32,997 nt of DNA from Mariprofundaceae bacterium (GTDB taxonomy: Bacteria > Pseudomonadota > Zetaproteobacteria > Mariprofundales > Mariprofundaceae): the NCBI GenBank assembly GCA_027035825.1, contig JALVTX010000173.1, positions 1-32,997 on the forward strand, in the 5' to 3' direction. Below, piece after piece: positions 21,618 to 25,889 of the stretch. Every line of letters begins with the position of its first letter. Position 1 is the first letter of the stretch. Under the pieces are notes generated by a model. It did no database searches and was not told the DNA's origin. It was given only the letters and a program-made list of their open reading frames with translations. Made by a program: the position numbers and the translations under genes.

Positions 21618-21754
21618 ACACGAAGGCCGGATCCTGGGAGAAGGATCCCAAGACAGGGAAGCTGAAGCTCGTCGGCCGCACGCGCGATGACGTGGCCGAG
21701 GGCAAGTCGGCGACGGCTGGTGAAGCGAACAAGAGCAAGGGAGGCAAATCATGA
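21614..21754 (+). CDS. Small DUF2635-like protein
   Basis: 46 aa MNTKAGSWEKDPKTGKLKLVGRTRDDVAEGKSATAGEANKSKGGKS, in Mu gp38-like position. Confidence 0.45.
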   Translation: MNTKAGSWEKDPKTGKLKLVGRTRDDVAEGKSATAGEANKSKGGKS

Positions 21755-22689
21755 TTCGATCCGGACTCAAGGTTCTGCTGGCGGCGGCGGAAACGACCTA
21801 CGGCGTGGACGCCGCGCCGAACCCGGCCACCGATGCCATGCTGGTGGAGAATTTCAGTCTCACGCCGCTGGAGGCCGACGAGATCGTGCCGGAGGGCGTA
21901 GTGCGCCCGACCTTCGGCGCGGAGCATGCACTGGCGCTAACCGGCAAGCGCGTGCAGCTGGAGTTCGACGTTCCGGCGCAGGGCGCGGGCGCGGCGGGCG
22001 GCGTGCCGTTCTGGGGCGTGCTGATGCGCGGCGCGGGCTTCGCGCAGGTGGTGACGCCGAACGTCAGCTGCGCCTTCAACCCGGTCACCGGGGGCGAGGA
22101 ATCGCTGACGCTCCAGGTGTATCGCGGCGGCGTGGCGCACAAGGCGCTGGGCTGTCGCGGCGACTGGTCCATCAAGATCGACGCCGCGGGCCGGGCCCTG
22201 CACCATTTCAGCTTCACCGGCCTGTATCAGGCCGTGACCGATGCGCCGATTCCGGCGGCCACCGCGCTGCCGGTGCGTTCGGAGGTTCCGGTGGACCCGG
22301 CGCACACGCCGAGCTTCACGCTGATGGGCACGGCGCTGGCGCTGAAGAGCCTGGAGATCAAGCGCGCCAACGACGTGCAATTCCAGCAGCTGGTGAACGA
22401 CACCCGCGTGGACATCCTGGGACGCAAGCCGGAGGGAACCGCGACCGTGCGCGAAACGCTTGTCGGCACGTTCAACGCCTGGCAGCAGGCCGAGAACGGA
22501 ACGACCGGCGCACTGGCGCTGACGCATGGCGCGGCGGCTGGAAACATCATCGAGATCAACTGCCCCAACGTACAGATCGGCAAGCCGACCATCTCGGACG
22601 AGAACGGCATTTCGATGATCCAGATGCCGCTCCGCATCGCAAGCACGAGCGCGACGGCGAACGACGACATTCAGGTCATCGCGAGGTAG
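21751..22689 (+). CDS. Phage tail tube protein (siphovirus-like)
   Basis: 312 aa KVLLAAAETTYGVDAAPNPATDAMLVENFSLTPLEADEI...; position ahead of chaperone and tape measure. Confidence 0.75.
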   Translation: MIRSGLKVLLAAAETTYGVDAAPNPATDAMLVENFSLTPLEADEIVPEGVVRPTFGAEHALALTGKRVQLEFDVPAQGAGAAGGVPFWGVLMRGAGFAQVVTPNVSCAFNPVTGGEESLTLQVYRGGVAHKALGCRGDWSIKIDAAGRALHHFSFTGLYQAVTDAPIPAATALPVRSEVPVDPAHTPSFTLMGTALALKSLEIKRANDVQFQQLVNDTRVDILGRKPEGTATVRETLVGTFNAWQQAENGTTGALALTHGAAAGNIIEINCPNVQIGKPTISDENGISMIQMPLRIASTSATANDDIQVIAR

Positions 22690-22692
22690 GCC

Positions 22693-23034
22693 ATGTTCAA
22701 GCTCGATCTCTCACCCACCTACAAGTATCCGGTCACCGTCCGCTTCTTCGACGAGACGGGACGACGCATCGAACGTCGCTTCACCGCGCACTTCCGCCGG
22801 TTGAAGAAGAGCGAGGCGGCCGAGCTGATGACCCGCGCCGAGGCTGGCGAGATCGAGGACGCCGAGCTGATGCGCGAGATCGTGGCCGGTTGGGAAGGCA
22901 TCGCCGACGCCGATGGCCATCCGATCGAGTGCAACGACGAGACGATCGCGGAACTCGCCGATATCCACGAGGTGGCCAGCGCCATCGGGGTGGCCTGGTT
23001 CGAGTCCCTTACGGGCGGCGCCAGAAAAAACTGA
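22693..23034 (+). CDS. Tail assembly chaperone, zero-frame product (lambda gpG-like role)
   Basis: 113 aa ending GGARKN-stop immediately after an A AAA AAC heptamer. Confidence 0.75.
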   Translation: MFKLDLSPTYKYPVTVRFFDETGRRIERRFTAHFRRLKKSEAAELMTRAEAGEIEDAELMREIVAGWEGIADADGHPIECNDETIAELADIHEVASAIGVAWFESLTGGARKN

Positions 23035-23357
23035 TCGAGGCCGCCCGCGCTTGGGCGGGCGGCCGGACAGGTGCGCTGGACGATGATGATCGCCGTCTGC
23101 TGGGCGAGGAAATGGCGGCGCGGGTGGAACAATCGCGGGAGGTGCTGATTTGGCCGGAGAACTGGCAGGCATGGCAGGTGTTCGCGGCATGCGCCACGTG
23201 TTGGCGGCTGACGCCGGATGGCCGGCCCTACGGCCTGGTGATGGCGGATGTGCAGGCCGTTATCGCCATGCTCGGGGTCGAGGATGTGACGGACTGCCTG
23301 GAGCGGGTGCTCGTGATGCAGCAGACCGCGCTCGATGTGTGGGCCGCGCGCGGCTAG
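22693..23357 (+). CDS. Predicted -1 frameshift fusion tail assembly chaperone (lambda gpGT-like role)
   Basis: -1 frame continues LIEAARAWAGGRTGALDDDDRRLL...WPENWQAWQVFAACATCWR (DUF1799-like) to a stop at 23357; predicted total about 221 aa. Confidence 0.8.
23025..23064 (+). promoter_or_regulatory. -1 programmed ribosomal frameshift signal
   Basis: A AAA AAC heptamer in the correct zero frame (23025-23031), 7-nt spacer, then hairpin GGCCGCCCGC-GCTTGG-GCGGGCGGCC (23039-23064). Confidence 0.85.
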
Positions 23358-23488
23358 GGCCCTATCAGCGACCAGACGAGCGCCAGCGCGCCCGTCGCGA
23401 ACATGGCCAGCCCCACGAACATCATCCACGGCGCAATCATGAAGCCGATGGCGAATACGGCCGCGCCGCCCCAGATCAGGAGGTTCAT
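23354..23488 (-). CDS. Antisense-oriented small two-TM protein
   Basis: 44 aa MNLLIWGGAAVFAIGFMIAPWMMFVGLAMFATGALALVWSLIGP, GC-rich third positions; its stop shares CTAG with the chaperone stop. Confidence 0.5.
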   Translation of the reverse strand: MNLLIWGGAAVFAIGFMIAPWMMFVGLAMFATGALALVWSLIGP

Positions 23489-23504
23489 GGATGGAGTCTA
23501 GACC

Positions 23505-25889
23505 GTGGGTGACATGAACCTCAAGCTGGTGCTGGAGTTGGACGATCGCGGCGCCATCAAGGGTATTCGCGACGCCGACGGCAACCTCGTGCGCCTGGGC
23601 GGCGACGGGCGCAAGGCCGGCGACGAAATCGCCGGCGGCATGAGCAGGGCGCGCGCGGGCGTGCGCTCCATCTCCGAACAACTTGGGCGCATGCGCCGGG
23701 AAATCATGGGGCTGATCGGTATCCGGTTCGGCGCGGAAATGGTGCGGGATCTCGCGAGTGTCACCGACCGTTTCAAGGAAGTCACGGCCCGGCTCGCCGT
23801 GGCCAGTCGCTCGGCCGAGGATGCCGCACGCGCTTACAAGGCGCTGTCCGCCATCGCCCGGGAAACGCGCGCCGACTGGGGCGCGACGCTCGATCTCTAC
23901 TCGCGCCTGGCGCGATCCACGAAGGAACTGGGCGTTTCACAGTCCGACCTGTTGACGGTCACGAAGGCCATTAACCAGGCTATCGTGGTTTCCGGCGCCA
24001 GCGCCCAGGAGGCCGAGGCTGCACTGATCCAGTTCGGCCAGGGCATGGCCAGCGGCGCACTACGCGGCGACGAGCTCCGCAGCGTGCTGGAGCAGATGCC
24101 GAGGCTGGCCCAGATGATTGCCAGGGGCATGGGCGTATCGCTCGGCCAGTTGCGCCAGCTTGGCGCGGAGGGCCTGCTCACCACGCGGGACGTGATTGCC
24201 GCCATCAAGGCCCAGGCCGGGAGCGTGCAGCAAGAGTTCAACCGCATGCCGCCGACCATCAGCCAGGCTGTGGCACAGATCCGGAACAGCTTCACGATCT
24301 GGCTCGGCGAACAGGACAAGGCGCTCGGCTCCAGCACGATGCTCTCGGGCGCGCTGATGGGAATCGCGGACAACATGGATATCGCGGCGCGCAGCGCCAT
24401 CGGGCTGTCGGGGGCGATCCTGACATTGAGGGCCAATGCCATGCTGGCCGCGCGAGGGTTCGGTCGTCTCGGCAAGGCGGTCAGTCTGGTCGGGGCAGCC
24501 TTTGCCGGCTGGGAGATCGGCAAGGCGCTCGCCGACAAGTTTGCCATCGTGCGCGACTTCGGCATCACGCTCGGTGCGCTGCTAAATAAGCTGTTTATCA
24601 ACGTGCGATTCTTGGGTCGCAAGATTGCCGCCGAGTTTCGACTGGCTATAACATCTCCGCTGGATGCGCTACGCGAGCGTGTGGCTTCGGTGACCAAAGC
24701 CATCGCGGATGGGCTACGCGCCGTAGGGATGGAAGCCGCCGCAGGGCGTCTGGATGTGCTGGCGAAAGCGTTGCACTCGAACACGCAGAGCGCCCGCCGC
24801 TACCGCGAGGAGATCGCCCGCTTGAACCGCGAGCGCGCCCAAGAGCTTGCGCTCATTGATCGCGGCGCCGTGGCCATGATGCGCGAACCGATGCGGCGCC
24901 GTCAGCCCCCAGCAACGGCATCCGGCGGCGGGTCAAATCCGCCGGCGGCCGGTGTCGATATCCTCAATCAGTTGCGGAAGAAACAACGGCAGCAGGATCG
25001 CGAGAACCTGCGCAAGCACTTGGCGCAGAAGCTTTCCATGCTCGAAACCTCGCTGATGACCGAGGCCGAGCGCGAGAACCAGGCTTATCAGAACAGGCTC
25101 TCCATTCTGGCCCAAGCGCGCGAATTGAAGCTGATCGATGAGCAGCGGCAACAGGAACTGGAAGCGCAGCTGAAGGAACAGCATGAGCAGCGACTGACCG
25201 AGATCCAGCGTCAGGCGCTGGAGCAGCGCCAGCAAATGTTGACCGACTTCCAGAACACGGCGCTTGGATTGCAACAGGGTTTCGCGCAGGCATTTCAGGA
25301 TGCCAGTCGCGTGAACCTGGACCAGATGCTGGCGCGGATGTCGGCTTTTCACGACGCTAGCAAGAAGCTCTGGCAGACGGGGTTTCAAGGCAAGGTGGCC
25401 GTGATGAAGGGCGGCTTGGCGATGATGTCCGGTTTGATGGAAAGTCATAATCGGAAGCAATTCGAGCTGGGCAAGGCTGCGGCCATTGCCAACGCCGTGA
25501 TCAGCACGGCCCAGGGAATGGCCGAAGCTCTAAAATGGGGATTTCCGATGGGCCCGATCTTTGCCGGCATCATCGGCGGCCTTGGCGCCTTGCAGATAGC
25601 GAAAATCGCGTCGACCAAGTTTGGCCAGAAAGGCGCCGGGAGTGCGGGCATTCCCTCTGCCGGCATCGGCGGCGGTACGCCCACCGTGCGGGTAAATACG
25701 CGCACGGGGCTGCCAGCATCCCCTTCCGGCTTGCGGCAACAGCAAGTCCCGACCGTGAACCTCACCGTCCAGGCGTTGCACCCGGAGGCATTGAGTCCGG
25801 AGGTGGCCCAGCGCATCGCGGATAGCCTCGCCCCGGCCCTGCATGACACGCTTGCGCGCGGCGGCCAGAACGTGGCGGTGATGGCATGA
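23505..25889 (+). CDS. Tail tape measure protein
   Basis: 794 aa with tape-measure N-terminal domain features (FKEVTARLAVASRSAEDAARAYKALSAIARETRADWGATLDLYSRLARST...SALIQFGQGMASGALRGDELRSVLEQMP-like), central hydrophobic and coiled-coil segments. Confidence 0.88.
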   Translation: MGDMNLKLVLELDDRGAIKGIRDADGNLVRLGGDGRKAGDEIAGGMSRARAGVRSISEQLGRMRREIMGLIGIRFGAEMVRDLASVTDRFKEVTARLAVASRSAEDAARAYKALSAIARETRADWGATLDLYSRLARSTKELGVSQSDLLTVTKAINQAIVVSGASAQEAEAALIQFGQGMASGALRGDELRSVLEQMPRLAQMIARGMGVSLGQLRQLGAEGLLTTRDVIAAIKAQAGSVQQEFNRMPPTISQAVAQIRNSFTIWLGEQDKALGSSTMLSGALMGIADNMDIAARSAIGLSGAILTLRANAMLAARGFGRLGKAVSLVGAAFAGWEIGKALADKFAIVRDFGITLGALLNKLFINVRFLGRKIAAEFRLAITSPLDALRERVASVTKAIADGLRAVGMEAAAGRLDVLAKALHSNTQSARRYREEIARLNRERAQELALIDRGAVAMMREPMRRRQPPATASGGGSNPPAAGVDILNQLRKKQRQQDRENLRKHLAQKLSMLETSLMTEAERENQAYQNRLSILAQARELKLIDEQRQQELEAQLKEQHEQRLTEIQRQALEQRQQMLTDFQNTALGLQQGFAQAFQDASRVNLDQMLARMSAFHDASKKLWQTGFQGKVAVMKGGLAMMSGLMESHNRKQFELGKAAAIANAVISTAQGMAEALKWGFPMGPIFAGIIGGLGALQIAKIASTKFGQKGAGSAGIPSAGIGGGTPTVRVNTRTGLPASPSGLRQQQVPTVNLTVQALHPEALSPEVAQRIADSLAPALHDTLARGGQNVAVMA

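Follow-up and report, generated by a model that had tools for sequence, protein, structure and literature searches.

Between the tail tube and tape measure genes of a prophage in a Mariprofundaceae genome lie two overlapping reading frames, G and T, which raise the question of whether T is a gene in its own right or the frameshifted extension of G. We addressed this question with the contig that carries them (32,997 nucleotides, hereafter the window) and with a survey of homologous loci. The sequence evidence argues strongly that a -1 programmed ribosomal frameshift joins the two tail-assembly chaperone frames of this Mu-like prophage; from it we infer slippage in the host, the level of that slippage and the roles of G and of the G-T fusion.

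The neighborhood is that of a phage tail operon, with the order tube, G, T, tape measure and the two overlapping chaperone frames in between, all on the forward strand. The tail tube protein (21751-22689; PF18906 Phage_tube_2, E = 1.4e-15) is encoded directly upstream of G, and the tape measure protein (23505-25889; PF20155 TMP_3, E = 1.3e-61; TIGR02675) directly downstream of T. G (22693-23034, 113 aa) matches PF08748 Phage_TAC_4 above its curated cut-off (E = 5e-5; 23.8 bits against 21.1), as well as phrog_569 (E = 1.4e-21) and phrog_313, annotated as "Tail assembly chaperone" (5e-6). T (23031-23357, a -1 frame extension of 108 aa) matches PF08809 DUF1799 well above its cut-off (E = 1.1e-12; 48.4 bits against 26) and phrog_680 (E = 4e-17). 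These matches bear out a previous proposal, made from the sequence alone, that the locus encodes a G/GT-type tail chaperone pair. The window also encodes Mu-type portal, F, I (protease) and gpT capsid proteins, a terminase, a GH108 lysin and an AAA ATPase which, given its place and size, could be the counterpart of MuB. Of the window proteins that were scanned, none was identified as a tail sheath, and this Mu-like prophage is probably of a long-tailed type. Comparison by sequence with solved structures returned no credible relative, and a scan of positions 22600 to 23700 for consensus promoters and terminators found none.

In the interval that separates T from the tape measure gene, the opposite strand carries an ORF of 44 aa (23354-23488) for a small hydrophobic protein (MNLLIWGGAAVFAIGFMIAPWMMFVGLAMFATGALALVWSLIGP). 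A relative of this ORF, with about half of 43 residues identical, occupies the same place and strand in locus L025, and a different small hydrophobic antisense ORF is present in L035. The differences by codon position (17, 12 and 15 of 43) do not prove that it is coding.

A base-level check showed that the G ORF ends in AGA AAA AAC TGA. The heptamer A AAA AAC (23025-23031) is thus in the X XXY YYZ register, and the zero-frame stop codon (23032-23034) follows it directly. This is the sole occurrence of AAAAAAC on the forward strand of the 33-kb window. After a spacer of 7 nt that includes the stop (23032-23038) comes a predicted stimulatory hairpin (23039-23064), whose arms at 23039-23048 and 23055-23064 (GGCCGCCCGC/GCGGGCGGCC) form a perfect stem of 10 G-C pairs closed by a 6-nt loop. 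In the -1 frame, the first stop after the heptamer is at 23355-23357, which gives a predicted G-T fusion of 221 aa, and the phase of GC content by codon position changes frame near the heptamer. The slip site, the stem and the open DUF1799 frame were therefore all placed correctly by the sequence-only reading.

That reading had also named conservation in homologues as a check, and the outcome goes in its favor. Searches of genomes from the same order returned few relatives; an iterated G profile run against viral contigs, genomes and phage records retrieved 144 G genes. An in-frame X XXY YYZ heptamer near the G stop, followed by 60 or more open codons in the -1 frame, was found at 137 of the 144 loci, and relatives with as little as about 25-35% identity in G still have the heptamer, the stop and the T frame. 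Clustering at 70% identity left 61 representatives, among them the isolated phages S-CBS1, S-CBS3, S-LBS1, HK639, PS-1 and Cronobacter ESP2949-1. The representatives were selected for the presence of the heptamer, a filter that dropped just 7 of the 144 loci. Their heptamers are AAAAAAC (49), GGGAAAC (10), GGGAAAG (one) and AAAAAAG (one). The zero-frame tripeptide and codon usage would lead one to expect only 4.3 heptamers among the 61, and in the window, where the peptide is RKN, local codon usage gives the heptamer a probability of about 0.017. Six divergent matches to the G profile (L049, L052, L053, L056, L057 and L058) carry no heptamer within the last ~23 codons before the stop.

The beginning of T is itself conserved. 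Its residues 1-12 share the pattern L-x-x-A-A-x-x-W-A across the representatives, 59 of which (of 61) begin with Leu, and divergence over T-frame codons 2-9 is highest at third positions (0.345, 0.487 and 0.605 for the first, second and third positions). As the window offers no T-frame start before codon 28, these residues precede any place where T could start by itself, and the start of T is most simply explained as being translated by ribosomes coming from G. Separate synthesis of T from an internal start, with no fusion, is very improbable. Such a start is available at ATG 23112, which has GAGG two bases upstream and would yield a protein of 81 aa, and the GenBank records of relatives show T as a separate gene or leave it out, with the G-T fusion not annotated. 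However, the first 27 T codons, including the LxxAAxxWA motif under coding constraint, lie ahead of this ATG, no ATG precedes the T core in 28 of the 61 representatives, and an internal start leaves the conservation of the heptamer unexplained.

The fusion could also arise if RNA polymerase slipped on the A run, so that ribosomes read through an altered mRNA without slipping themselves; we consider this slightly less probable still. The run has six A's in the window, 7 in some relatives and nine in locus L124, but six A's are short for polymerase slippage. Several lineages have GGGAAAC in place of AAAAAAC, a heptamer that still follows X XXY YYZ but has no long homopolymer, and this argues against polymerase slippage; a structure that is conserved downstream at the spacing expected for ribosomes suits translation better. 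Locus L124 has a layout of its own: in the region 1860-1900 its nine-A run is followed by CC, and relative to G its T is shifted to +1/-2. To account for this one would have to invoke a slip of -2, slippage by RNA polymerase or an error in the assembly. Finally, an indel or decayed gene in this copy of the prophage, conceivable in a source assembly fragmented into 327 contigs, is extremely improbable given that over 130 other loci, some of them in the isolated phages S-CBS1, S-CBS3, HK639 and PS-1, switch frame at the same place.

A ribosomal -1 shift is further consistent with the RNA structure predicted downstream of the slip site. In the window this structure is more stable than in dinucleotide-shuffled sequences (z = -3.0 for 76 nt and -3.7 for 41 nt) and than in versions of the T frame resampled with synonymous codons (z = -2.96, p = 0.01). 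Across the family, stretches of 50 nt beginning 1-7 nt past the heptamer have mean z values of -1.28 to -1.38 against the synonymous-codon null, compared with -0.58 from +10, -0.12 at +120 and -0.1 to -0.7 elsewhere in G and T. We considered whether the stem could be a mere by-product of the GC-rich peptide EAARAWAGG and rejected this: the structure in the window exceeds what coding alone would demand (p = 0.01), and the offset controls localize the family signal. The stem is nonetheless more variable among relatives than the heptamer. The family mean z for the predicted structure is -1.23 against the synonymous null, with 33% of relatives individually significant (p < 0.05), so that the expectation of a conserved stem held as a tendency to keep downstream structure and failed in some relatives, where it is absent. 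A downstream stimulatory structure is not needed in all known cases of G/GT -1 frameshifting.

The position of the stop codon is a further constant of this family. A stop lies directly 3' of the heptamer in 55 of the 61 representatives, against 26.8 (sd 3.3) expected when the first two T codons are drawn from local codon usage; the P value of this excess, 4e-21, was computed as if the loci were independent, which they are not. Where the expectation is at most 0.21, the stop is still present at 14 of 19 loci against 1.6 expected. The idea that adjacency is simply what results from encoding Leu-Ile as CTGAT was discarded on the same comparison of observed with expected counts. Natural exceptions exist in L046, L047, L051 and L146, where the zero-frame stop is found 6-18 codons past the heptamer. 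Published mean distances from slip site to stop are 26 nt in the SEA-PHAGES set and 36 nt in the Xu set (PMC10885494), and a distance of zero, seen in most members, is therefore distinctive for the Phage_TAC_4/DUF1799 family. The adjacent stop seems to be a selected feature, which suggests that slippage in this family may face competition from release factors. Tentatively, the stop might even be a working part of the device, with slippage taking place while it occupies the A site and with release factor level, stop context (the choice of RF1 or RF2) and the hairpin together setting the G:GT ratio. A plainer reading is that G has to end exactly there.

In the mechanism that we propose, most ribosomes would read A AAA AAC and terminate at the adjoining TGA, releasing the 113-aa G. 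A minority, delayed by the hairpin 7 nt downstream, would slip back by one base in a tandem event in which two tRNAs re-pair on AAA AAA; these ribosomes would bypass the stop and read the DUF1799 frame to give the 221-aa G-T fusion. If these proteins act as lambda gpG/gpGT do, G would coat the tape measure protein while the T part would recruit tail tube subunits. The sequence-only reading expected this slippage to be efficient, and here we disagree. In E. coli the slip site A AAA AAC is weaker than A AAA AAG (PMC5009743), and lambda-type G/GT shifts occur at a low level by design; a low efficiency is therefore more likely, and the level in laboratory hosts may be low. In experiments on a different phage tail chaperone cluster, two genes gave 6-7% (PMC3711429).

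The description of the site as lambda-type holds for the mechanism and does not extend to the protein family, which is Phage_TAC_4/DUF1799 by Pfam. The -1 frameshift of lambda gpG/gpGT (Xu, Hendrix and Duda; reviewed in PMC5009743) and the one proposed here share their position between tube and tape measure, their direction, an X XXY YYZ site near the end of G and the pairing of a short with a fused long chaperone; this prophage differs in the family of G and T, in its A AAA AAC slip site, in a stop right after the heptamer and in its strong hairpin. The isolated phages retrieved in our survey resemble the window in having a homologous G, a DUF1799-like T in the -1 frame and a stop that comes straight after AAAAAAC or GGGAAAC, and differ in the strength and sequence of their downstream stems. 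The g-t frameshift of the haloarchaeal viruses HCTV-1, -2 and -5 (PMC5009743) is among the closest known systems, although its hosts are archaeal. Phage Mu has a gene pair with the same role, and the window carries Mu-like head genes, but the tail chaperone shift of Mu is -2 (PMC5009743) whereas that of this prophage is -1.

Frameshifting of the G/GT type by -1 is already well known in phages, and on sequence grounds the window very likely adds a further member: a clean case in a Mu-like prophage with an unusually constant layout, in which the slip site is followed at once by the stop and then by the hairpin. The single paper on DUF1799 that our literature search returned does not mention frameshifting. 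Throughout a broad phage family, the DUF1799 gene, which the phage records that we read annotate alone or miss, would supply the end of a fusion chaperone, read in the -1 frame. The adjacency of the stop beyond what coding needs makes competition between termination and -1 slippage testable at natural phage sites.
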